Shown here one piece after another: positions 1,766-29,713 of a stretch of 32,899 nt of DNA. Both the position numbers and the translations under genes were made by a program. Each line of letters starts with the position of its first letter. Positions within the stretch are counted from its first letter, which is position 1. The notes beneath the pieces were generated by a model that did no database searches, had not been told where the DNA came from, and worked only from the letters and a program-made list of their open reading frames with translations. Source of the stretch: a virus; the IMG/VR virus record IMGVR_UViG_3300048033_001020, positions 1 through 32,899 of that record; one strand, written 5' to 3'.

Positions 1766-1993
1766 TTAAACTAACGGAAGTCCTGACTTGTTAGTTTGCT
1801 CCCAGTTTGATTTAATAATATTAACAAAAATTTCTTTGTCACCAACATCAATATCATACATAATATCTTGATATTGTACACCTCCTCGCATACTCCAGAG
1901 AATGCGATACAAGTCATCTTTTAACGATTTTTGGGCTGCCTCGTAATCTTCTAAAAGCTTCTCTAGGTCAGACTCCGGCATTTCCTGGATCAC
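1766..1993 (-). CDS. Small protein overlapping gp26-like gene; possible -1 frameshift extension
   Basis: This 75-codon ORF starts with GTG at 1993-1991, overlapping the TGA of the upstream gp26-like gene as GTGA. The next in-frame ATG, at 1981-1979, would give 71 residues and is an alternative start. The product is acidic and helical at its N terminus (residues about 5-35), followed by a mixed region with two Asp-rich stretches. I do not recognise the family. The frame is exactly the one reached by a -1 shift at the slippery run at 1999-2008, so it may be made mainly as a C-terminal extension of the upstream protein. That is the arrangement of tail assembly chaperones such as lambda G/GT. The position beside a tape-measure-like gene fits this. 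Independent translation by coupling is the alternative. Confidence 0.7.
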   Translation of the reverse strand: MIQEMPESDLEKLLEDYEAAQKSLKDDLYRILWSMRGGVQYQDIMYDIDVGDKEIFVNIIKSNWEQTNKSGLPLV

Positions 1994-2820
1994 CCTACGA
2001 AAAAATTTGAGTCATCCATTGTAAAGATTGAAGTGTATTTTTTCTCACAACCACCACAAGTAAGATCTAATTTAGGCAAGTCCCAGTTCGCTGTATTTTT
2101 CTTTATTACTTGTTCAATACCATTAAAGTATTTTCTATCTTCTTCCATAATAAATGAGCGTATTGCATTTATATTAGTTTCTTCTTCTTCACCGTCTTTA
2201 ACTTTATAAACTTGATACAATACATTGCGTTGGTTTATTGATTGGATAATATTGTATACGCTTTTTGTAATTTCGTCTTTTTGTTCTTCGGATATGTTAG
2301 GCTGTTCAGTTAATTGGAACATAGTTCTATTAGCTTGGAATAGACTTGATTGAATTTCGGACCATTCATCATAAGTTAACGGCTTAATATAAAACTTTAA
2401 ACCGTCAATAATAGCATGATCAATAAATTCTCGATTTGTATAATCGTCAATGAACTTTCCTAATTCTAAATCATGACTATTACTTTCGTTACAATGCGGA
2501 CAAACTGAATTTTTAGAATAAACATCACCATATGATGCAATTCGTATTGCAATTAATAAAAATTCTATATCAATACTTGACAACTGTCCTGCATTTTTAA
2601 TTGCAGGAATACATGTCTGAATTAAATCTTTAACTGCTTGGCCATTGAGAAGTGCTTCCGGAGTCTTCATTGCAATTTCGTTTGCACCTGTCATTGAATA
2701 AACTGGCAAATCTTTAAACGATATGTCGGAAGAGTTGCTACTATCCATAAATCTAAACTCTGACGGCACATCAACGAATATTTTAGGCTGTCGTTTATGT
2801 TTGGTTAGTATGCTTTCCAT
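1990..2820 (-). CDS. 26: gp26-like baseplate hub / tail assembly protein
   Basis: This 276-residue protein resembles the T4 gp26 family of baseplate proteins as found in marine T4-like phages, where gp26 takes part in building the central baseplate hub. The N terminus is polar. The middle (about 60-105) is helical and contains a conserved-looking AIRIASYG stretch. Two CxxC pairs are visible, CPHC at 107-110 and CGGC at 255-258, which could form a zinc-ribbon-like site. It is longer than T4 gp26 (208 residues). The start ATG at 2820-2818 has a good AAGGAG on the minus strand just upstream, and a minus-strand late promoter lies at 2863-2856. It is transcribed opposite to the surrounding late genes. 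The identification rests on recalled family features and context, so the exact T4 equivalent is less sure than the general role. Confidence 0.65.
   Translation of the reverse strand: MESILTKHKRQPKIFVDVPSEFRFMDSSNSSDISFKDLPVYSMTGANEIAMKTPEALLNGQAVKDLIQTCIPAIKNAGQLSSIDIEFLLIAIRIASYGDVYSKNSVCPHCNESNSHDLELGKFIDDYTNREFIDHAIIDGLKFYIKPLTYDEWSEIQSSLFQANRTMFQLTEQPNISEEQKDEITKSVYNIIQSINQRNVLYQVYKVKDGEEEETNINAIRSFIMEEDRKYFNGIEQVIKKNTANWDLPKLDLTCGGCEKKYTSIFTMDDSNFFVG
1999..2008 (-). promoter_or_regulatory. Putative -1 ribosomal frameshift site
   Basis: On the minus strand the end of the gp26-like gene reads TCA AAT TTT TTC GTA GGG TGA. The heptamer T-TTT-TTC (2005-1999) is in the X-XXY-YYZ phase for -1 slippage, and the overlapping A-AAT-TTT (2008-2002) is also in phase. 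After slippage both Phe tRNAs re-pair fully and reading continues as CGT AGG GTG ATC. This enters the 75-codon ORF in frame with no stop, giving a predicted fusion of 351 residues. I did not find a convincing downstream pseudoknot by eye. Confidence 0.5.
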
Positions 2821-2890: not shown

Positions 2891-4894
2891 ATGACTAATG
2901 AAGAAATGGAAGAATTAGAACGCCTTAGAGCCTCCGCTGGTAGGTCAGCTGGCGCCATGGATAGTTGGACTCGTGGATTAGAGTCAGGAGTTACAGGCCT
3001 TGCTGGATTTGCAGGGGCTGCAATAAGTGGCGAAGAAAAATTATCAAGTTATACTCAGCATATTGGTACAATGCTGTCTGGCTTTGGTGGTGCAGGTAAA
3101 TTTCTAACAGGCAGTTTAGGAGTTATTACTGGGTATATAGACGATACAACAGGATCATTCCAACAAATAACTAAATCCGGTTTCCAGTTAGAAGACGGTC
3201 TAACTGGTGTTGGTATACAATCTGCTAGATCAGGAATGCAAATTCAGCAGTTTGGCAAGTTTGTTACTGATAATAGTGACATGCTGCGTACAATGGGCGG
3301 AACTGGTAGCCAAGCAATAAAAACGTTTGGCGATATGTCAAAAAGCTTTAGAGAAGATTCTTCAAATTATTCTCAAGGACTAAGACGTTTAGGTTATTCA
3401 ACTGAAGAAATTAACGAAAGTCTAGTAGCGTTTTCTGCAATTAACAGAACACAGTACCTTGACAATATGCGAACTGGACAATCACAAAACAGATCCGCAA
3501 TGGAATTTGCACTACAAATGGATCGAATGGCTCAGCTAACTGGAGAAAACAGAAAAGAACTCCAGAAAGAAATGGATGCCAAACGTCGAGATGGTAGAGT
3601 ACAAGCGTATTTAAGAACTGAAACTGGAGCATTAGCAGATCAAATTAGTAGTTCTCTTACTACTATTGGGACAATGGATAAAAATGCTCAAACATTGCTT
3701 GAAGATATATTAGTACAAGGATCAGTTACTGGAGAAAGTGCAGCAGCAGCTAGTTTCTACGGTCAAGAAGTTACAAACGCTGCACATGCCATGCGAGCAG
3801 CACAGCAAGCACAAGATCCTGAAGCATATGCAGCAGCACAGCAACGATTCTTAGCAGGCATGGCAGTAGCACAAAACGATCAAGAGAGATTAAGAGTTGC
3901 AAGATATAGATCAGACTCTGGATACATTAATAATATACAAGATAGTATAGGCAACTTTACTGGAATGAACGATCGTTTATCTTCTGTATTAGCTGAAAGT
4001 GGAGTTGATATAGAAAATGCATCCGCCGAACAAATTCGAGCTGCTATGAGAAGTATCGATGCATCAACAGTAGCAGCGCAAACCGCAGCAGGTGTTACAG
4101 TAGACGGTGCGCAAGACGGAGTAGGCGACGGCGTTACTAACGCAGCAGCATCACTAACTGATGCTATTAATACAGTATCAAGTACAACTAGAGAACAGTT
4201 AGTTAACGTGCTTAGTAATCAAGTAGGGCCTTCGCTACGTGGATTTAGTACAGACATTGATAACTTTGCTGCAACAACACGAACTAGTATTGCATTAATG
4301 GGCGAAGGAATTGTAGGGGCCGGCAATAACGCAGCATCTACAGACACTACAGTAGGAGCAACTGTAGGCCCAGCTAGTGCAGCTCAAACATTTAATGCTG
4401 CTTCAGCTTCAGGTGCTGTCCAAGAAGGAGAACTTAATAGATTACCTCCTGACTTAGTAGCAAGTTTAAGTAGCTTAAATGATGTTTTAGCTGGATTACT
4501 AAGTGGAATAAACCCTCAAGGCAATTTCTTAGGTGGTACTGCTATCGGCGGAATGATGAATATGGTAGGTGAACAAGGACCAGAGTTTATCATGCCAAAC
4601 GCAAATAGCTTAGTTGCTACTGCTAAACAGTTTGCAGACAAAGCAAGACCGCAAATGGAACAGATGGCAGCATCTATGGGACCACAAATGGAACAGATGG
4701 CTAGTCAGATGCGTCCGCAAATGGAATCAATGGCAAATCAAATGCGTTCTCAGTTTGGGTCTGGATCACAAAGTGGTCAAGATATGGAAATGATAGTTGC
4801 AAAACTAGAAACTGGATTTATGAGTTTAGTTAAAGAAATGCAAAACAACAACAGAGAAGTCAGGAAGTTGACCGGAAATGCATATAGGGTATAA
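2891..4894 (+). CDS. Tail tape-measure-like structural protein
   Basis: This 667-residue protein has the composition of tail tape measure proteins: long Ala/Gln/Met/Gly-rich helical stretches and Gly-rich hydrophobic segments near the N terminus (about 37-80). Its key motif is GEQGPEFIMP at residues 560-569. It matches the GE-x-GPE-x-x-x-P signature often found toward the C terminus of tape measures. Directly after it, about residues 590-625, is a short repeat built on QMEQMA/QMRPQM. Its length is comparable to T4 gp29 (590 residues), which sets the length of a ~100-nm tail. Its gene neighbours differ from those of T4 gene 29, so it could instead be a tape-measure-derived structural protein with another role. 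No strong ribosome binding site precedes the ATG, which is the first in frame. The gene is divergent from the gp26-like cassette and 8 nt upstream of the portal gene. Confidence 0.6.
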   Translation: MTNEEMEELERLRASAGRSAGAMDSWTRGLESGVTGLAGFAGAAISGEEKLSSYTQHIGTMLSGFGGAGKFLTGSLGVITGYIDDTTGSFQQITKSGFQLEDGLTGVGIQSARSGMQIQQFGKFVTDNSDMLRTMGGTGSQAIKTFGDMSKSFREDSSNYSQGLRRLGYSTEEINESLVAFSAINRTQYLDNMRTGQSQNRSAMEFALQMDRMAQLTGENRKELQKEMDAKRRDGRVQAYLRTETGALADQISSSLTTIGTMDKNAQTLLEDILVQGSVTGESAAAASFYGQEVTNAAHAMRAAQQAQDPEAYAAAQQRFLAGMAVAQNDQERLRVARYRSDSGYINNIQDSIGNFTGMNDRLSSVLAESGVDIENASAEQIRAAMRSIDASTVAAQTAAGVTVDGAQDGVGDGVTNAAASLTDAINTVSSTTREQLVNVLSNQVGPSLRGFSTDIDNFAATTRTSIALMGEGIVGAGNNAASTDTTVGATVGPASAAQTFNAASASGAVQEGELNRLPPDLVASLSSLNDVLAGLLSGINPQGNFLGGTAIGGMMNMVGEQGPEFIMPNANSLVATAKQFADKARPQMEQMAASMGPQMEQMASQMRPQMESMANQMRSQFGSGSQSGQDMEMIVAKLETGFMSLVKEMQNNNREVRKLTGNAYRV

Positions 4895-17941: not shown

Positions 17942-20900
17942 ATGGCAAATAAAATACTACACAAACGAAATAATGTCCAAGGACAAGCACCAACAGCAGA
18001 GCAATTAGACTTAGGTGAAATTGCAATTAATACTGCCGATGGGAAGATGTTTATTAAAAAATCCGATGGCACTATTCAAGATGTAAGTAAAGAAATATTT
18101 AAAGGCGATACTAGAGTAGTAGTTAATGACGAAGGAAATGGCGTTGTTACTATGTTAGTTGACGGTGTAGAAAAACTACGTGTTGACGGAACTCAAGTAA
18201 GTATATCTGATGATTTAGAAATAGATAATCAAGGATCAATTAAACTTAAAGAACTGGGAGCATTTGGCAATGACTCAGTTAACCTTAAAGCTCCGTCGGA
18301 GCTAAGTGATAGTTACGATATTATACTGCCAGCATCTGATGCTAAAAAAGGACAAATTTTACAAAACGTAGGATTTGGACAAACGCAATGGAGTGATCCA
18401 GGTTCACTAGGTGGTAACAGAATTTACGTTAGTGCAGAGTACGGCGACGATACAAATGACGGACGCACTGGCGCTGTTAAAACTATTAAACGTGCTGCAC
18501 AAATTGCTTCAGATGGTATCTTTACACCGGTTGTTGATCCTGGTCAGTCAGCTTACGATGCTAAAGATTTAATAGAAGCTAACAGAGCATTCTTAGAAGA
18601 AGAAGTTGTACAGTTTAGTACTAATGCATTTAATATTACATATGATGCAGCAAAGTGTGAACGTGATGTAGGTTTAATTATTGATGCAATTGAGAACGAT
18701 ATGCGCCTTGGCGGCGACTCTGCATCAACAGTTGCTGGCGCACTTTATTCACTAGAAAGTTCTGCATTAGTTAAACAATCACAAGACGTTGCTACAGAAT
18801 ACGGCTTAAGAAGAATTAGAGATATTGTTAAAGAAGTTGTAACTAACTCTGTTATTACTGACACAACTCAAGTAGGCGCAGTACAACAATTCGACGGCAC
18901 GAAAACTGCAACAGCAAGTGAAGCATTATTAGTTGAAGGATTAGGACAAAAAGTAGTTGACTTTTATGTTGATGGCGTCGGCGATGGTCCAAATGAAACT
19001 AAAACTTTAGACACTGGCTTACTTAATGCAGAAACACTAATCGACAATAACAAAAACTTTATTCAAGACGAAGTTATTGCATTCTTAAATCAAAAGTATA
19101 GCGGCTTTGCATATGACGAAGCTAAGTGTGCTAGAGATACTGGGCTACTTATTGATGCTGCAAACTTTGATTTACTTTATAGTGGTAATGCTGAATCTCA
19201 TTATGCTGGCATAACTTATTTAAATGCTACAGCTTCAGCAGTTAGAGATTCGCAAAAACTAGAAACACTTGCAGGTATTGATTATGCAAGAACAATTGCT
19301 AAAAAGGTTGTACTAGGTGAACCTGTAAAGTATACATATCAAACAAATGAAGTACAAAACACTGCTTTACCGGCTGGTACGCAAACTGAAGCAGATAAAG
19401 TTGAAACAAACCTTAGTATTGTATACGGATTATTAAATGCTGGTATAGGAACTGCTAACGGTGTAATAACAACTGATACTGCAAAACTAAATTCAGACAC
19501 ACTAATTGAAAACAACTACGACTTTATTAAAGAAGAAGTCATTGGATACTTGACAGCAACATATGCTGGTTACACTTATGATCAAAATAAGTGTCGTAGA
19601 GATGTTGGCTTAATTCTTGATGCAGTGCGTTATGACTTAACACACGGCGGAAACAACGAAAGTATTCAAGCAGCACTATCTTACTATCGTTGGGTTGCAA
19701 GTACAACTATTAATCAACAACTAGGCGAAACACTTGCAGGTATTGATTATGCACTAGACCTAGCTGCATTAGTAGTACTAAATCAAGCACCTGCACAAAG
19801 TTATCAAGGTGTATTTGCACAGTTTACTGATACAGGCAATGCAGGCGATGCTGCTTCGCAGACTATCATTAACGGATTAAACGCATTAATTGCTGACATT
19901 ATTACAGACGGCGACAGTGCATCTATTGGATTAGACATCGATCCTAATAACGCTGTACCAAGTACTTTACAAGATGTTATTAATGCAAACGCAATACTAG
20001 AAGCTAACAAAGACTTTATTAAAGCTGAAACAGTTGCATTTATTACAGAAACATTTGGCAACTTTGATTATGACCCAGTTACTTGTTCTAGAGACGTAGG
20101 TCTTATTGTAGACGCAGTAAAATATGACGTAGAACACGGCGGCGATGCAGAAAGTATCTTTGCAGGTATTTCTTACTACAACAATGTTAGTGCAGGCACT
20201 GGAGAAATTACAGGAGATGCAGTTGACGTATTAAGAGCGCAATTGCAGCCAACAATTGATGCACTAGAATATACTAGAGACTTGCTAACTAAAGTAGTAC
20301 TACAGTCTACAATTGATAATCCTTACCAAACAGGATCTACACAAACACTTGACGCTGCTAACCCAACTACAAATGCAGTAGCAAATACAGTTTATAATCG
20401 TGCTAATACAGTAGTAACAATACTTAAAAACGGTTTAGGCGTACAGAACAGCTTTACAAAAACAGCAAATGTTCCGGCACTTAACGCTGAAAGTTTGTTA
20501 CAACAGAACACTACATTTATCCAAGAAGAAGTAGTTGCATACACTACTGATCAGTTCCCAGGCTTTACTTATGACGCAAATTCATGTAAACGTGATGTTG
20601 CGCTAATACTTGATGCTATTGAATATGACTTAACACACGGCGGTAATACTAATACTATTGCAGCAGGTGTTGCATATTATAAACAAGCAGCAGCATTAGT
20701 AGTCAGTGGACAGCGTACAGAAACACTTGCAGGCCTTGCACACTTTAAAGACATTGCGCAAAAAATTGTTCGTAACGTAACAATTGACACAACATACTCT
20801 TCAGAAGCACAAGTATTTGACGGAGCAAATCCAAGTGATGTAACTAGTGCAAACACAATAGGTTCACTACTTGACATTATTATTGATATTGTTGATGACG

Positions 20901-23900
20901 GATTAAGTACACAAGTAAACGTTATAGCTAACGGTGCTTTAACAACTGATCAAGATATACTAGATGCAGGTGCATTAATTACTTCTAATAAAGCGTTTAT
21001 CCAGGCTGAAACAGTTGCTTACGTAGATGCAAGTTGGATTAACTTCTCTACAGGTTATAATCAAAACTTGTGCAGACGTGACACTGGTTTAATACTTGAT
21101 GCAATTAACTTCGACTTAACATACGGCGGAAATTCTAACTCAGTAACAGCAGCAATTGCATACTTTAAGCAAAGCAGTGCATTTGCACTACAACGACAGT
21201 TAGTACAAACTGTTGACGGTATTATGCATGCTGTTAAGCTAGCACAACAGGTTGTCGAAAACTATGATGTAACTAGCTGGCAGATTGGCTCTACACAAAC
21301 ACTTGACGTTCAAAATCCAGGAAGTGCAGAAGCAGTTACTAAGATTGCTGAACTTGGAGTAGTAATTGAAGATATTATTACAGACGGGGCAAGCGCAGAA
21401 GCAGGTATTTCTATATCTAGAAATACACTAATACCAACAACTAATACAAACATTACAAATGCAGCAGACCTAGTTGCACTTAACAAAGCATTTATACAAG
21501 CTGAAGTTGTTAGCTACATTAACACATACTTTACAAACTTTACATATGATGTAGAGTTCTGTCGTAGAGACGTAGGACTGTTTATTGATGCCATTACATA
21601 TGATTTAATCTACGGTGGTAACTCACGTGCAATTGAAGCAGGTGAAGCATACTACATTGGTAATACTAGTGTTATTCAAGGACAGGAATTCCAAACAGTC
21701 TTAGCTAACTTATACTTTAAGAAACTAGTTAACAACATATTACAAAACGTTGTAAACGATCGTTTGTACCAAAACATAACAGGACAAACAGTTGATTTTA
21801 CTAAAACTGTAGAAGGTCCTACACTAGGAATTGTTGAATCAGAATTTGATATTATTGTTGATATTATCGAAAACGGACCTAATTCTGTAAATATTCCAAC
21901 ACAAGTTGATCCGGCATTTAATATTGCATATACAACTATTATGGTATCAACTGGCGAATACAAAGAAGACAACCCAGTTATTCTTCCAGACTATGTATCT
22001 GTTGTTGGCGACAACTTGCGTACAACTATTATTCGTCCACTAAATGCTAACCAAGACATCTTCCGTATTCGTAACGGTTGTTACTTACTAGGTGTTACAT
22101 TTAAAGACGGACTAGATGCGTTTAACGTGCCGAGCTTTACAGGTAGATTCTGTACAGCTTTCGATGATCCGTTTGATACAGGTGTTGATCGTACAGGTTA
22201 TGTAGGACTAAGAGAGCGTCCACTTATTACACAATCGCCATACGTGCAGAACGTATCTATTATTTCGTTCTTAGGACTAAGTGGTTGTTTAGTAGACGGT
22301 TCAAAAGTTATTACACCAAACATTCCGCGCTTTGCAATTGAAGCAGAAAATCCAGTATTTGGCGAAACACCTGAACAAGGTAAGTCAATGGTTGCTAACG
22401 CATATACTATGCTATCATTTGGTGGTGTTGGTTGGCGTCTAACTAACGATGCATACGCACAGATCGTTTCCTGTTTCCAAATCTTCTTAGGCAACGGTTG
22501 TTGGTGTCAGTCAGGTGCTTACCTTTCTGTTACTAACTCTGCTACTAACTTTGGTTTATACGCACTGCGTTCATCAGGTTACTCTGCTAACAGCTTTGTG
22601 TTTGACCGTGGTGTTATTGCTGAAGCTGGCGCACAAGCGTCACAGCAAAAACTAATTACCGTTGGTACTAAGCGTACTCCGATTAACCAGTTTGTTATCA
22701 GACTTTATGACGATGACGAGTTTAACAACTTAGCTAACGATATTACAAACAGCTTTAAAACTGTACCTGCTATACTAGAATTTAATGCAGGTGAGATTGG
22801 AGAGCTATACGGTGACGATGCAATTTACCCTGTTGACTCAGTTACAGCATCAACATTTACTATCCAAGTTGGTCCAGGTAAAAATCTAGGAACTTATGTA
22901 TCCGGCGGTACGGTTGATATTAATGGTGCTAATACTCCTGAGAATGTTGTATCAGCAGTTTATGATAATGTAGCAGGAACTTTAGAAATTGAAGTAGCTA
23001 CACTGCCTGTAGTACTTGATAATGTAACTATTACAGAGATTGAATTTGACGGAACTAATTATCCTGTATATGAAGCAGGATCATTAGATGTAGATGCAAA
23101 CACAATTACTATTCCAGGACACGGATTAGTTACAGGTGATGCTGTAACTTATCGTAGAAACGGTAACGTTGAGATCCCAGGTATTGCTGACCAAGGCTTG
23201 TATTATGTAGAAGTGCTAACAGCAGAAATTATTAGACTGTATCAAGATGATTCAAGAGGATTTGTTGCTGATATTATTGAAGTTTCTAGTGGTACACATA
23301 CTATTGAAACACAAACTGAAGAATTCTTTATTGATGACATTCTTCTTGATGCAGACGGTAATAAGCAAACACACAACAAGTATCAAGTACTAACATTAGC
23401 ACCTGGATCATATGCATTTGCACCAGGTGATACTATTGAAGCAACTACTGGAATTTATAGAAACAAGGCATATGTTTATGAATACAATTCAGTTACTAGA
23501 CAGCTAACAGTATCTGTAGAAAAAGCAGAAAACCAAGGCTCACTAACAAGAATCTTCTTTGATGCTACAAGTATTATTGACAGAGATAGTGCTGCGATTC
23601 CTAACAGTAATATTGCTGTTACAGGATTTACGTCAAGAACAGACTTGTTCACAGCAGAGTTTACAATTGATCCAACTATTGTTGGTGGTGTATTTACTAA
23701 CACTGGTAATTTACCAGGAACGTTTATACGTTTCCATAGACCAAGTATTGTTAACAGTTCATCTCACACTTGGGAATATGCAGGTTCGGGTACAGACTAT
23801 AACGCTCTACCACAGAACGGCGGCATTACAAGAGAAGAATACGAACAGTTTAGTGACTTACCAGGACGTGTTTACTCTTCAGGTACAAACGAACTTGGTG

Positions 23901-26900
23901 ACTTTAAAGTTGGTGACTTCATTGTTGCAGAAAACAGAACTGGTAACATTACGTTTAAAAACACAGTTACAGTTGGTGAACTATCAGCACTGAAACTTGC
24001 TGTTTCGGATGTTGTTATTGAAGCAATTTCGACTGATCCAGGACTAGGTGACAATGAACCAGGCGGCGCAACTGATACACGATTAATTACACAGAACGCT
24101 GCACGTAGCTTCCTAGCAAACAGACTAGGCGACTTTATTGATAAGAGTGTATCTACTAACTCAGTTGCTGGTGCAGTTCCACAGATGAACGCACAGGGCT
24201 TGTTGAACTCAGATATTATTCCTGCAACACGTAACTTTAGTTTGTATGTAACAGATCAAAAGTTTGGTAGATTTAATCTAACTGATGATATTCCACCACA
24301 AGAACCATTACAGGGCGACATTGCGCAAGAAAGATATGAGCGTGTGTTCTTTACACTTAGTCAGCCAGTTGCATTTAGCGAAGGTGACATTATAGTCGAA
24401 GCAAATACAGGTGCAACTGCTATTGTTGATGAAGACAACGGCGGCGCTGCTACTGCGTACTTTGCAAATATTGTTGGAACATTTAGTAACAACATTAGTG
24501 CAAACACCCTGAGTATTAACGGACAAAACACTACAGCATATATTACTAACACAGGCGGAACTGATGTGCGTGATATCCAGTACACTATGGTACAAGATAG
24601 TAGTAGCCAGTTCTTAAGATACTTACCAGCTGGAAGTACATTTACAGTTGGAACTACACTTACAGCAGCTAACTCTAAAACACAAGGTACCGTAACAGGA
24701 CAAGTAGAAGGTGTTGCTCTAGCAGTTGACATTGCTAATATTAGTAATGGTGCAGGGTATGTACCGACAACAGGATCACAAACATACACCCAAGTTCCTT
24801 TAATTAGTAACACAGGTACAGGTACAGGCGCTATTGCAGACATTACTGTATCTAACGGACAGGTAACTAACGTTGACTTAACAAGAGGCGGTAGTGGTTA
24901 TGCAGTGGGAGACACTGTTACGGCTGCAACAGGCAACTTAGGCGGACAAAACTCACAAGACTTCCAAGTTAACATTAACGCAGTTGATAACAGAGTGTTT
25001 GTAGATTTGATTGCTGGTAAGTTTATTGCTACAAGTACTTCGAACGAATACACAGAAAGTACCGTAGCTCCAGTAACTTCAGTTGCGTTAGGTAATACAA
25101 CACTAAGTGCATTTAATGCAGATACAACTGCTAATGGCGGTAACGTTGATTATCCTAACTCACAGATAATAATTAACTCGCACATATTTGACAACGGTGA
25201 TGTTGTTAACTATGCAAGTTCTCCAAACCCGGCAATAGGCGGATTACTACAAGGCGAAAGTTATTTTGTTAAAGTTATTGATTCAAATACTATTGAGTTA
25301 TACAACAGATATGATCTTGATGCAGCACAAAAAGTAACATTTACTTCGAGTTCAACTGGCACACATGCGTTTATTATTAAACATGTAGACACACGTAAAA
25401 ATCGTATATATGCACCAGATCACGGATATACTAGCGGACAAGCTTTCCGCTTTGTAAGTGCAAACCCTCCAACAGGAATGGTAAGTGGTGGTTACTACTA
25501 CGCTGGTACAACAAGTCAGAACACATTCTCAGTACACGAATTCCTACAAGATGCAGTAAGCAGTGTTAATGGTGTTACAGCAAATGAAATTAACTTTATA
25601 CAAACAGGTAGTGGTAGTGCTGACTTTGTAAGACAAGATGTTACAATATATGGAGAAGTTAATACTTCAGGCGAAACTGAAACTAACTGGGCATTGACTG
25701 GTAGTGCTAACGTTGATGCAAGTAACATTGTATCAGGTGTTATTAGTACTTCAAGACTTGCAGCAGTAGGAACTGCTAATAGTAACACTTACTTAAAAGG
25801 TGATAGTAGTTGGGATCTTGCAACACGTACAGTACGTGTAGCACTTGATTCTCCACTTAACATTACAGGCGACTTTTATACTAGTGGCGGCCAAAACTTC
25901 TACTTTAAAGATACACAGTTTGATATTGACAGAACTGATGATACTTTAGGTAATCAAAGTTTTACAAACATTGGTGTTGCTGCATTTAGTAAAGCACAGT
26001 TTAATGTTAACTCAGGCGAAGTAGAACTAAAAGCAGGCGTACTTGATGCAGGTACACTAGACGGACTAGATAGTCAGTACTTCCTAGATCCAGGTAACTT
26101 ACTAAATCCTGTACCAGTTAACAGAGGTGGTACAGCAATTGATCAGTATATACCGGGCGATATGCTATATGCAACATCACCGACAACACTAAACAGATTG
26201 CCAATTGGTGATCAAGGTGCTGTTATGGTTGTTGACGAGCTAGGTAATCCGACTTGGTCAAATGACGTTGCACCGTTTGTAGAAGATACAAACAACTTTG
26301 GTGTTTCGAGACCATTAGAAATACGACATGACGTTACAAACACACCAGCGGTAGGCATTGGTGTAGGTATGCAGTTCCAAGTTGAAACAGCTAACAACAA
26401 CAGAGAAGTTGGTGGTACTATTGATGCTGCTGCAACGGATGTAACATTTGGTTCAGAAGACTTTAGCTTCAAGTTTAACTTAATGTCAGCAGGCTTCTTG
26501 CAAGAACGAGCAGTATTAGATTCCATTGGTAACATGTCAATTGACGGCGACTTTACAATCCAAGGCGGCGATCTTAAAACAACAAAAACTAGTGCTTCGA
26601 TTTATGATACTACTGTGTCTTCGATGAGTATTGGTAGAGCTGCTTCTGCAATTACAATTGGTGCAGATAAAACTGGTGAAATGCGTATTAGAAATAAAAC
26701 GCTAGTAGTAGGCGGTGACGCAGTTGAAACTGCTCCAGTAGATGCTATAATTAAAGCACCTAATGCACTAGGTACTAACAAGCAAGGACCAGACTTAACA
26801 ATCAAAGGTGGTGCATCAACTGGTAACGGTGTGGCAGGGTCAGTATTTATTGATACTGGTGCATCTGGAAATTCAGGTAGTACTTCAAATACACAAGTTA

Positions 26901-29713
26901 ACCGTCTTGAAGTAACGGGCAATGATGCGCATACACCGTCATTATTATTAGGTAGAAGTTCACAGAGTACACAGCAAGTAGGTACAGTTGGCGTTAAAGG
27001 TCCTATTACTGGACAGTTTAACATTAATGGTGCATTACTTGAGTTAACTCCAGGACCGGGTACAGGTTCAGGACAAGGTGCTGCTGTAAACATTTACGGT
27101 TCAGACAGCATTGGTTCAGGCAGTGGTATACAAGTAAGCGAACTAGTTGCTAGCTTCTCAGGCGATGCTATTAGACTAAACAAAGATGTTATTACACAAG
27201 CTAATAGCTTAGGAACTAACCAAGCAGCATTTGACTTGTTAAACGACACAGTTACAACACTTAACATTGGTGGTGCTGCAACTGCTATTGACATTGGTGC
27301 ATCAAGTGGTTACTTGCACGTTAACTCCGCTGACCAATCAACAAGTACTACAACAGGTGCTTTACGTGTAGACGGTGGTGGTAGCTTTGGTAAAAACTTA
27401 TATGTTGGTGGTAACTTAGTTGCTGCTGAACTTACACTTACTGGTGCTATTGACGGTAACAGTTATAATGTTAGTGGTAACGAAGTTATTGACACTAACA
27501 GACGCTTTATCTCAAGCGGTGGCACAACAGGCGAACTTGCTAAAGTACATGCTATTAGCTTTGACTGGGACGGAAACTACGGTAACTTAGGCGGATATGT
27601 AAATCATGGTATTAGTTCAAGAGGCGAAACATGGGGAGCAGGAGATGATATTAGTATTAACTCTTACCACAACGTTAACGTAAGACTTGACACTAACTCA
27701 AACAACAGTGCTGCAACTACATACTTCCGTGTAAACAATGACGTAAGCCAAACAAATGGTAACATTGTACTAAGTGCAAGAGGCGATGGTAAAGTTGGTA
27801 TTAACAAAGATCCAAGCGGTACTTACAACTTAGATGTTAACGGTAGCTTCAATGCTACAACTGGTTACATTAACGGTGGTGCTATTTGGACTGCATCAAA
27901 TGACGGAGATGGTTCAGGACTAAACGCAGACTTGCTAGACGGCTTACATGCATCAAGCTTCCTGCGTGTTGATACTGGTGCAGCATTTAGTGGTGGTGTA
28001 TTTAAAATTAGTGCTCCTGCAACTACTATTCAAAATACTGGCGAAGTTAATACACTCCAGCTATACCAAGGCAACGGCGCAAACGCATACGATGCATTCT
28101 TAACATTCCATATTGGCGGTGACTATGCTGTACACTTTGGTTTAGACGGAAGTACAAACGACTTAGCATACGGTGGCTGGTCAGCAGGCGCAGTAGCACA
28201 TAAAGTATGGCATGCTGGTAACGATGGTTCAGGCAGTGGACTAGATGCAGACTTGTTAGACGGACAGGATAGTGCATTCTTCCGTAATGCAAGTAACATT
28301 AACGCTGGTACATTCCCAGATAGATTTAGTAGTAGTACACGTTACAACATTGGCTTTATTGACGGTTATGGCGGCGACAACTACGATAAATTACGTGTTT
28401 GGAACAGTGGTTCATACACAATTGGTATGCACAGTGGTCAAACAATGGGCTGGCTAAACGACTATGCAATGACGTTTACTATGAACAATGACACTGATCG
28501 TGGCTGGAAGTGGAGACATGATGGCGACGGCGTTGCAACTGGTGCTATGGCACTTACAACAGATGGACGTTTAACAGTTAAACAGTTTATCTCAGTAGGT
28601 AACCAAACAACACGCTACTTGAGAGAACCAACAGGTAACTACGGTTCAATTCAGGTTAGTGGCAGCGGCTACGGTAACTGGGAAGGCTTTAGCATCGACG
28701 GTCGTGCAGTATTCATGCATGACGGCGGTAGTGAAACAGGTATTTACAACGATGTTAACAACCATTGGCTAGTGCGTTCAGATCATGGCGGACGTACAGG
28801 ACTATATCACAACAACAGTGAAAAGATCAACACACGTTCAAATGGTGCTGATATTAATGGTGAATTGTATGTAAACAACTGGGTACGTATTGAGTCAGAC
28901 TCGGGTATTTACTGGCAAGCAGGTTCATATGCTGGCTGGCACATTTATCCAAACGCAACTAATGCAATGGCGTTCCGTTCTGCAAACAGTGGATCATGTG
29001 AACTGCGTCTAAACAACAGTTCAAACACTATTTACGGTAGACTGTATGCAGACGATGCATCGCAAGGCTTCCTAAACGAAGACGGTAACTGGTCACTACG
29101 TTCATATAATAACGACGGTGTATCACCGGGTATAAGATTCTACGAAACAAGTGGAAACACTAGCTGGACAGGTAACCCAGGTAACGATATTGGTAAAATT
29201 GAATACCACGCAGATAGAATGTACATTGTTGCTGGTGCTAACTCAAACAGAGTTGTACAGTTTAGACGAGACGGTACTGATGTATCATACGTTGATAACA
29301 GTGGTGTGTACCAAGGTACAGCAGCAAGTGCTAACTGGGCTGACTTGGCAGAGAAATACTTAGCTGATGCAGTATATGCACACGGTACAGTTCTTGCAAT
29401 GGGCGGTGATGCTGAAGTAACAGAATACAAGCCAGGCATGAAACTTGCAGGTGTTGTATCTACATTACCAGGCTTGATGATGAACCAAACAGATGAAAAC
29501 AGAGATGATCCGATGTGGCCATTTGTTGCACTAAAAGGTCGTGTTCCATGTAAGATTAACGGAACTGCTAAAAAAGGACAGTTTATTATTGCTGATCAAG
29601 ACGGTGCAGGCCGTGCTGTAGATGAGCTAAGTACTATAGCAGAATATACATTACTAATCGGAACTGCAATTAGTGATTGTGATGGAAACGGTACTGTAGA
29701 GGTTAAGGTATAA
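17942..29713 (+). CDS. Giant 3923-residue tail fibre protein
   Basis: This fibre takes up over a third of the window. Residues 1-55 (LDLGEIAINTADGKMFIK and flanks) resemble the N-terminal attachment domain seen in phage fibres and Mtd-like receptor-binding proteins. A beta-helix start (RIYVSAEYGDDTNDGRTG, about 159-176) is followed by seven helical repeats of about 160 residues (about 205-1320). The beta-helix then resumes at VSTGEYKEDNPVILPDYVSV and continues to about 1570. Mixed beta regions follow. DADLLDG-type fibre repeats occur near 2701, 3326 and 3433, and a GALRVDGG repeat near 3140. The last ~125 residues (from WADLAEKYLADAVY) form a compact domain common at fibre C termini. It may assist folding, as intramolecular chaperone domains do, but no protease triad can be assigned. 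AGGA at 17929-17932 is 9 nt from the ATG. It is likely host-recognition apparatus. Confidence 0.9.
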   Translation: MANKILHKRNNVQGQAPTAEQLDLGEIAINTADGKMFIKKSDGTIQDVSKEIFKGDTRVVVNDEGNGVVTMLVDGVEKLRVDGTQVSISDDLEIDNQGSIKLKELGAFGNDSVNLKAPSELSDSYDIILPASDAKKGQILQNVGFGQTQWSDPGSLGGNRIYVSAEYGDDTNDGRTGAVKTIKRAAQIASDGIFTPVVDPGQSAYDAKDLIEANRAFLEEEVVQFSTNAFNITYDAAKCERDVGLIIDAIENDMRLGGDSASTVAGALYSLESSALVKQSQDVATEYGLRRIRDIVKEVVTNSVITDTTQVGAVQQFDGTKTATASEALLVEGLGQKVVDFYVDGVGDGPNETKTLDTGLLNAETLIDNNKNFIQDEVIAFLNQKYSGFAYDEAKCARDTGLLIDAANFDLLYSGNAESHYAGITYLNATASAVRDSQKLETLAGIDYARTIAKKVVLGEPVKYTYQTNEVQNTALPAGTQTEADKVETNLSIVYGLLNAGIGTANGVITTDTAKLNSDTLIENNYDFIKEEVIGYLTATYAGYTYDQNKCRRDVGLILDAVRYDLTHGGNNESIQAALSYYRWVASTTINQQLGETLAGIDYALDLAALVVLNQAPAQSYQGVFAQFTDTGNAGDAASQTIINGLNALIADIITDGDSASIGLDIDPNNAVPSTLQDVINANAILEANKDFIKAETVAFITETFGNFDYDPVTCSRDVGLIVDAVKYDVEHGGDAESIFAGISYYNNVSAGTGEITGDAVDVLRAQLQPTIDALEYTRDLLTKVVLQSTIDNPYQTGSTQTLDAANPTTNAVANTVYNRANTVVTILKNGLGVQNSFTKTANVPALNAESLLQQNTTFIQEEVVAYTTDQFPGFTYDANSCKRDVALILDAIEYDLTHGGNTNTIAAGVAYYKQAAALVVSGQRTETLAGLAHFKDIAQKIVRNVTIDTTYSSEAQVFDGANPSDVTSANTIGSLLDIIIDIVDDGLSTQVNVIANGALTTDQDILDAGALITSNKAFIQAETVAYVDASWINFSTGYNQNLCRRDTGLILDAINFDLTYGGNSNSVTAAIAYFKQSSAFALQRQLVQTVDGIMHAVKLAQQVVENYDVTSWQIGSTQTLDVQNPGSAEAVTKIAELGVVIEDIITDGASAEAGISISRNTLIPTTNTNITNAADLVALNKAFIQAEVVSYINTYFTNFTYDVEFCRRDVGLFIDAITYDLIYGGNSRAIEAGEAYYIGNTSVIQGQEFQTVLANLYFKKLVNNILQNVVNDRLYQNITGQTVDFTKTVEGPTLGIVESEFDIIVDIIENGPNSVNIPTQVDPAFNIAYTTIMVSTGEYKEDNPVILPDYVSVVGDNLRTTIIRPLNANQDIFRIRNGCYLLGVTFKDGLDAFNVPSFTGRFCTAFDDPFDTGVDRTGYVGLRERPLITQSPYVQNVSIISFLGLSGCLVDGSKVITPNIPRFAIEAENPVFGETPEQGKSMVANAYTMLSFGGVGWRLTNDAYAQIVSCFQIFLGNGCWCQSGAYLSVTNSATNFGLYALRSSGYSANSFVFDRGVIAEAGAQASQQKLITVGTKRTPINQFVIRLYDDDEFNNLANDITNSFKTVPAILEFNAGEIGELYGDDAIYPVDSVTASTFTIQVGPGKNLGTYVSGGTVDINGANTPENVVSAVYDNVAGTLEIEVATLPVVLDNVTITEIEFDGTNYPVYEAGSLDVDANTITIPGHGLVTGDAVTYRRNGNVEIPGIADQGLYYVEVLTAEIIRLYQDDSRGFVADIIEVSSGTHTIETQTEEFFIDDILLDADGNKQTHNKYQVLTLAPGSYAFAPGDTIEATTGIYRNKAYVYEYNSVTRQLTVSVEKAENQGSLTRIFFDATSIIDRDSAAIPNSNIAVTGFTSRTDLFTAEFTIDPTIVGGVFTNTGNLPGTFIRFHRPSIVNSSSHTWEYAGSGTDYNALPQNGGITREEYEQFSDLPGRVYSSGTNELGDFKVGDFIVAENRTGNITFKNTVTVGELSALKLAVSDVVIEAISTDPGLGDNEPGGATDTRLITQNAARSFLANRLGDFIDKSVSTNSVAGAVPQMNAQGLLNSDIIPATRNFSLYVTDQKFGRFNLTDDIPPQEPLQGDIAQERYERVFFTLSQPVAFSEGDIIVEANTGATAIVDEDNGGAATAYFANIVGTFSNNISANTLSINGQNTTAYITNTGGTDVRDIQYTMVQDSSSQFLRYLPAGSTFTVGTTLTAANSKTQGTVTGQVEGVALAVDIANISNGAGYVPTTGSQTYTQVPLISNTGTGTGAIADITVSNGQVTNVDLTRGGSGYAVGDTVTAATGNLGGQNSQDFQVNINAVDNRVFVDLIAGKFIATSTSNEYTESTVAPVTSVALGNTTLSAFNADTTANGGNVDYPNSQIIINSHIFDNGDVVNYASSPNPAIGGLLQGESYFVKVIDSNTIELYNRYDLDAAQKVTFTSSSTGTHAFIIKHVDTRKNRIYAPDHGYTSGQAFRFVSANPPTGMVSGGYYYAGTTSQNTFSVHEFLQDAVSSVNGVTANEINFIQTGSGSADFVRQDVTIYGEVNTSGETETNWALTGSANVDASNIVSGVISTSRLAAVGTANSNTYLKGDSSWDLATRTVRVALDSPLNITGDFYTSGGQNFYFKDTQFDIDRTDDTLGNQSFTNIGVAAFSKAQFNVNSGEVELKAGVLDAGTLDGLDSQYFLDPGNLLNPVPVNRGGTAIDQYIPGDMLYATSPTTLNRLPIGDQGAVMVVDELGNPTWSNDVAPFVEDTNNFGVSRPLEIRHDVTNTPAVGIGVGMQFQVETANNNREVGGTIDAAATDVTFGSEDFSFKFNLMSAGFLQERAVLDSIGNMSIDGDFTIQGGDLKTTKTSASIYDTTVSSMSIGRAASAITIGADKTGEMRIRNKTLVVGGDAVETAPVDAIIKAPNALGTNKQGPDLTIKGGASTGNGVAGSVFIDTGASGNSGSTSNTQVNRLEVTGNDAHTPSLLLGRSSQSTQQVGTVGVKGPITGQFNINGALLELTPGPGTGSGQGAAVNIYGSDSIGSGSGIQVSELVASFSGDAIRLNKDVITQANSLGTNQAAFDLLNDTVTTLNIGGAATAIDIGASSGYLHVNSADQSTSTTTGALRVDGGGSFGKNLYVGGNLVAAELTLTGAIDGNSYNVSGNEVIDTNRRFISSGGTTGELAKVHAISFDWDGNYGNLGGYVNHGISSRGETWGAGDDISINSYHNVNVRLDTNSNNSAATTYFRVNNDVSQTNGNIVLSARGDGKVGINKDPSGTYNLDVNGSFNATTGYINGGAIWTASNDGDGSGLNADLLDGLHASSFLRVDTGAAFSGGVFKISAPATTIQNTGEVNTLQLYQGNGANAYDAFLTFHIGGDYAVHFGLDGSTNDLAYGGWSAGAVAHKVWHAGNDGSGSGLDADLLDGQDSAFFRNASNINAGTFPDRFSSSTRYNIGFIDGYGGDNYDKLRVWNSGSYTIGMHSGQTMGWLNDYAMTFTMNNDTDRGWKWRHDGDGVATGAMALTTDGRLTVKQFISVGNQTTRYLREPTGNYGSIQVSGSGYGNWEGFSIDGRAVFMHDGGSETGIYNDVNNHWLVRSDHGGRTGLYHNNSEKINTRSNGADINGELYVNNWVRIESDSGIYWQAGSYAGWHIYPNATNAMAFRSANSGSCELRLNNSSNTIYGRLYADDASQGFLNEDGNWSLRSYNNDGVSPGIRFYETSGNTSWTGNPGNDIGKIEYHADRMYIVAGANSNRVVQFRRDGTDVSYVDNSGVYQGTAASANWADLAEKYLADAVYAHGTVLAMGGDAEVTEYKPGMKLAGVVSTLPGLMMNQTDENRDDPMWPFVALKGRVPCKINGTAKKGQFIIADQDGAGRAVDELSTIAEYTLLIGTAISDCDGNGTVEVKV
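18560..21910 (+). repeat. Seven tandem ~160-residue repeats in the giant fibre
   Basis: Each unit contains a segment of the form KxFIxxExxxY...FxYDxxxCxRD(V/T)GL(I/L)(I/L)DAxxxDLxxGGN followed by a second helix with a variable loop. The single Cys of each unit is at residues 239, 396, 551, 715, 882, 1044 and 1207, giving periods of 155-167. The Cys and the following RD-x-x-L-x-x-DA are kept in all seven. The units are diverged at DNA level, so they are stable and not recent expansions. Confidence 0.85.

Follow-up and report, generated by a model that had tools for sequence, protein, structure and literature searches.

A slippery site in phase at the end of the gp26-like gene

The stretch of viral DNA analysed here (the window, 32,899 nt, IMG/VR record IMGVR_UViG_3300048033_001020) carries on its minus strand a gp26-like ORF of 276 aa (positions 1990..2820), read in the 0 frame to a TGA stop at 1992..1990, and a 75-codon ORF that starts with a GTG at 1993, overlapping the TGA as GTGA, and ends at 1766. 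The question raised by this locus is whether the two ORFs encode separate proteins or belong to a single gene expressed in two forms. The slippery site, its phase and conservation, selection on the extension, start codons missing in relatives and homology to T4 gp26 and gp51 make it very probable that the two ORFs are one tail assembly chaperone (TAC) gene, whose short product (TAC-N) and long product (TAC-NC) would arise by programmed -1 frameshifting. From this sequence evidence we infer that ribosomes slip here, how often they do so and that the products act as chaperones in the window phage.

The 3' end of the gp26-like ORF reads ATG GAT GAC TCA AAT TTT TTC GTA GGG TGA on the minus strand, with the TCA codon beginning at 2010. 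As the first-pass annotation had stated, it contains two overlapping heptamers in the -1 phase, T_TTT_TTC (1999..2005, minus strand) and A_AAT_TTT (2002..2008, minus strand), although the distance of 12 nt to the stop given there was imprecise, as the TGA begins 6 nt past the end of T_TTT_TTC. Across the 10,253 codons of the 18 genes in the window, T_TTT_TTY occurs in phase once, four codons before the gp26-like stop; a slippery site at this junction is well beyond chance. Reading across the junction in the -1 frame gives ...SNFF-RRVIQEM... and remains free of stops to 1766, so that the fusion of 351 residues proposed earlier is found as 274 + 77 aa. The added part, the putative C-terminal domain of TAC-NC (RRVIQEM...LV, 1766..1999, minus strand), comprises 77 aa plus the stop and four predicted helices.

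The gp26-like product belongs to PF12322

The gp26-like product matched PF12322 (T4 gp26) with E=1.6e-15 and 57.8 bits, above the curated cut-off of 24.5, and its second family match was PHROG 150, 'baseplate hub'. Its AlphaFold2 model had a pLDDT of 91.5, and the BFVD matches of this model were T4-like baseplate hub assembly proteins. Among the PDB matches obtained with Foldseek and VIA-align there was no solved tail assembly chaperone, such as HK97 gp13, and PDB searches with the models of the gp26-like product and of the extension returned unrelated helix matches only. Neighbouring genes in the window encode a T4-like portal (gp20), protease (gp21) and capsid protein (gp23), while the named relatives are mostly jumbo T4-like phages (PA5oct, Atu_ph07, Phosso, SCTP-2, CBB and GAP32, with RaK2, 121Q, Munch, XacN1 and RAS14 in addition). 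The window phage is a member of a diverged, jumbo-related branch of the T4-like phages.

The BFVD search with the gp26-like model also returned uncharacterised jumbo-phage proteins of 450-690 aa (E 1e-4 to 1e-6) from the Ralstonia phages RP12 and RSF1, the Erwinia phages phiEaH2 and Special G, and the Aeromonas phage PS1. From this structural resemblance, they may be the tail assembly chaperones of those phages.

Site, phase and extension are conserved among relatives

We compared 107 distinct gp26-like proteins, taken from IMG/VR scans and from named phages. In 101 of them an in-phase T_TTT_TTY lies near the 3' end of the gene and leads into a -1 frame extension of 53-80 aa, and among the named phages with both are PA5oct, Atu_ph07, SCTP-2, CBB, RaK2, 121Q, S-PM2, P-SSM2 and KVP40. 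Site, phase and extension, which the first-pass annotation had proposed to look for in related phages, are thus kept across many lineages. Of the pair of heptamers described there, T_TTT_TTC stood in this comparison, whereas only 29 of the 101 site-bearing sequences retain A_AAT_TTT, which was for that reason rejected as the main slip site; judged from its conservation, T_TTT_TTC is the working slip site. Phe-Phe pairs elsewhere in the relatives' loci take the T_TTT_TTY form in only 18 of 138 cases, and from local codon usage it would be expected at about 43 of 99 tested sites, or at 19 of 44 after thinning of lineages. The codon before the site varies among ten triplets, all with a final T because the motif demands it, and the following base is G in 95/101 because an Arg opens the extension. 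This opening Arg is invariant in a 51-row alignment (A8). In each of 16 large phage records, a single complete gp26-like gene has one clear extension immediately behind it, and we saw no second fused copy.

The extension itself appears to be a conserved protein domain. Comparison of the window extension with that of its relative L001 gave a dN of 0.044 and a dS of 0.58, with 6, 0 and 20 changes at codon positions 1, 2 and 3, respectively, a pattern indicating that it evolves as a protein under purifying selection. Its model had a pLDDT of 91.8. The extensions of the jumbo phages are homologous to those of T4-like phages (hhalign, E=3.6e-6, probability 87), and that of EniLVp02 matches PHROG 634, the family of gp51. 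Searches with the window extension gave no significant match in Pfam, PHROG or NCBIfam, nor did its model in BFVD; tblastn of the extension alone against the phage collection also gave no match, since the query is too short and too diverged.

These data bear on the possibility that the extension is a protein of its own, translated from the GTG of the 75-codon ORF by termination-reinitiation at GTGA, the T run being incidental. The window by itself would allow this, as it has the GTGA overlap and codons 3 and 7 of the extension are GTG and ATG. However, in 56 of the 101 relatives the extension lacks ATG, GTG and TTG throughout its first 15 codons, and independent translation therefore fails as a general explanation; a start codon is lacking even in L004-L006, whose extensions are 39-60% identical. 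Moreover, the extension is conserved from its first residue, the Arg, upstream of any start codon, and the slippery run would be left unexplained. We consider separate translation very improbable.

RNA signals downstream of the slip

Across the family, sequences downstream of the site are more structured than would be expected, with a mean folding z of -1.96 over 50 nt as compared with -0.17 for the control, and the longest stem that the two arms can form averaged 7.85 bp against 5.73±0.22 bp when the arms were dealt anew (46 thinned lineages). In 21 relatives an 11-bp stem begins 5-6 nt past the slip, with 95.7% of cells able to pair and 13 changing on both sides; these relatives were chosen for possessing the stem and are therefore fairly judged only against slid and shuffled controls, and none of 500 shuffles equalled the covariation score. 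RNAalifold on 66 sequences found no single consensus stem for the whole family, because the register of the stem differs among clades, while the clade-wise stem holds. In the window, downstream structure is weak (folding z near 0), and the 6-bp stem that could form between GTGATC (1993..1988) and GATTAC (1948..1943), spanning 1943..1993 on the minus strand, is a weak candidate stimulator only and is unproven. An upstream Shine-Dalgarno-like element was rejected as a stimulator, since 97 of the 101 relatives had no match to one; none was found for the window.

Slippage of RNA polymerase on the T6 run would place the fusion in a fraction of the mRNA, and the homopolymeric nature of the run, in which a one-base insertion yields the same frame, is compatible with it. 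Nevertheless, transcriptional slippage usually needs runs longer than T6, and the run is T6 closed by C in 98 of the 101 relatives and T7 in only 3. The covarying stem 5-6 nt downstream suits a ribosomal signal instead, and we give polymerase slippage even less credence than separate translation. Homopolymers are error-prone in sequencing, and a lost or gained T could have split a single ORF, but more than 100 distinct sequences show this arrangement, among them the complete genomes of many phage isolates, and these independent isolate genomes refute a sequencing or assembly error.

Under programmed -1 frameshifting within one TAC gene, the majority of ribosomes would translate the gp26-like ORF through to the TGA and release the 276-aa TAC-N. 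In a minority, the Phe-tRNA would exchange its pairing with UUC for UUU at T_TTT_TTC, setting the ribosome back by one base, and translation in the -1 frame would then yield the 351-aa TAC-NC with its added helical C-terminal domain. By analogy with gpG and gpGT of lambda, the tape measure protein would be coated by many short and few long copies, and the C-terminal domain of TAC-NC would recruit tail-tube subunits.

T4 and other known systems

We located PF12322 in T4, S-PM2, P-SSM2, KVP40, HTVC008M, Cr30, phiM9, phiW-14 and EniLVp02, and all of these except T4 have the slippery site and a -1 extension, the site being T_TTT_TTC or T_TTT_TTT, or T_TTT_TTG in phiM9. The cyanophages and KVP40 thus share with the window both the -1 frame relation and the poly-T site. 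T4 gp26 and gp51 (TAC-N and TAC-NC) resemble the window proteins in PF12322 and in the homologous C-terminal extension, but T4 encodes each form in a gene of its own. The Phe-Phe at the 3' end of T4 gene 26 is coded TTC TTT and so the slippery run is gone, while gp51 matches PF12322 and has the same C-terminal extension ([23 protein letters not shown]) without any change of frame. As read from these genes, T4 is a natural control, in which gp26 is without the run and gp51 is the fused form encoded as a separate gene.

The first-pass annotation knew of no described frameshift in a T4-like phage, yet Vladimirov, Gautam and Davidson (Virology, 2022) reportedly identified the T4-like TAC genes, with frameshifting said to be conserved in several T4-like groups and T4 said to have separate genes 26 and 51. 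Our results appear to agree with that account and to extend it to the jumbo T4-like branch, to which the window phage, with a TAC gene divergent from a tape-measure-like gene, belongs. Passages of PMC12846349 and PMC10885494 cite that work for T4-like TAC genes and frameshifting.

As in the window, the lambda system has a short form and a frameshifted long form (gpG and gpGT; PMC5009743). It differs in gene order, since in lambda the chaperone gene precedes the tape measure gene and shares its strand, and the window phage is a T4-type myovirus; the slippery sequence of lambda G/GT probably also differs from that of the window. The chaperones of the Vandenendeviridae and Andersonviridae (phage Adele) resemble the window gene product in being myovirus chaperones with a conserved poly-T -1 site, although they come from other phage families and use another motif, GTTTTT; their downstream ORF is frequently annotated as a separate hypothetical gene (PMC12846349). 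In the annotated giant-phage records that we examined, the extension is omitted or given as an unrelated hypothetical gene. A 2016 review described G-T frameshifting as widely conserved 'except T4' (PMC5009743). If our reading is correct, tail chaperones made by recoding extend throughout the giant T4-like phages, and T4, which had long stood apart from other tailed phages, would look like a case in which a second gene replaced frameshifting.

A +1 clade and two-gene variants

Searches with L154 and L016 as queries recovered a sister PF12322 clade (L161-L258 from IMG/VR, with L153, L154, L261 and L262) in which the C-terminal extension lies in the +1 frame. The junction is TTY TTT TGG CCT in 72 of 74 distinct sequences, where reading on in the +1 frame gives Phe-Phe-Gly-Leu. 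Isolates with a +1 extension include Microcystis phage Mel-JY01 (TTT TTT TGG CCT) and Flavobacterium phage immuto (TTT CTT TGG CCT). The frame relation suggests that this clade uses +1 frameshifting (or -2, which gives the same frame) in place of -1.

In Listeria phage LIS04 (L263:1480-2400), the gp26-like gene lies just before the tape measure gene and has an unannotated +1 frame extension of about 70 aa, with the junction GAG TTT TTT AGT. Another locus, L150:1805-3768, has two gp26-like ORFs in tandem. The second encodes a PF12322 protein whose extension is in frame with the rest, an organization that looks like another case of the two-gene solution of T4 gp26/gp51.

Three routes to the long form may be represented in PF12322: -1 at T_TTT_TTY (the window, jumbo phages, cyanophages and KVP40), +1 at TTT_TGG_CCT, and a second gene (T4 and the L150 lineage). 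Chances are about even that the family switched repeatedly between these routes and that the +1 and jumbo-phage branches are undescribed. Since this gene occurs naturally in a -1, an apparent +1 and a two-gene form, the question of which recoding signals matter becomes directly testable.

The tape-measure-like neighbour and gene order

A gene of 667 aa on the plus strand (2891..4894) is divergent from the gp26-like ORF and is tape-measure-like by position and weak similarity. One BLASTP comparison matched it to RaK2 ORF088 (E=1e-7), whose record likens that protein to a tape measure protein, and no protein-family match was found in searches that included Pfam and PHROG; its identity as the tape measure protein is weakly supported. 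Of the lambda-like design proposed earlier, a chaperone gene beside a tape measure gene, the chaperone reading is the part that gained support, the neighbour being weakly tape-measure-like and divergent. The canonical order is seen in relatives, as Flavobacterium phage immuto and Listeria phage LIS04 have the family member between the tail tube and tape measure genes.

Virion annotations point both ways. In PA5oct, the neighbours of gp26 were detected by virion mass spectrometry while gp26 has no such annotation, as expected for a chaperone that leaves the virion. The homologue in CBB, on the other hand, is annotated as a structural protein, which counts against the chaperone reading.

Elsewhere in the window, positions 17942..29713 form a single ORF of 3923 codons, preceded by an ORF of 1500 codons, and an inverted repeat at 148-217, with 33-nt arms that are 82% complementary and separated by 4 nt, lies upstream of a 411-aa ORF.
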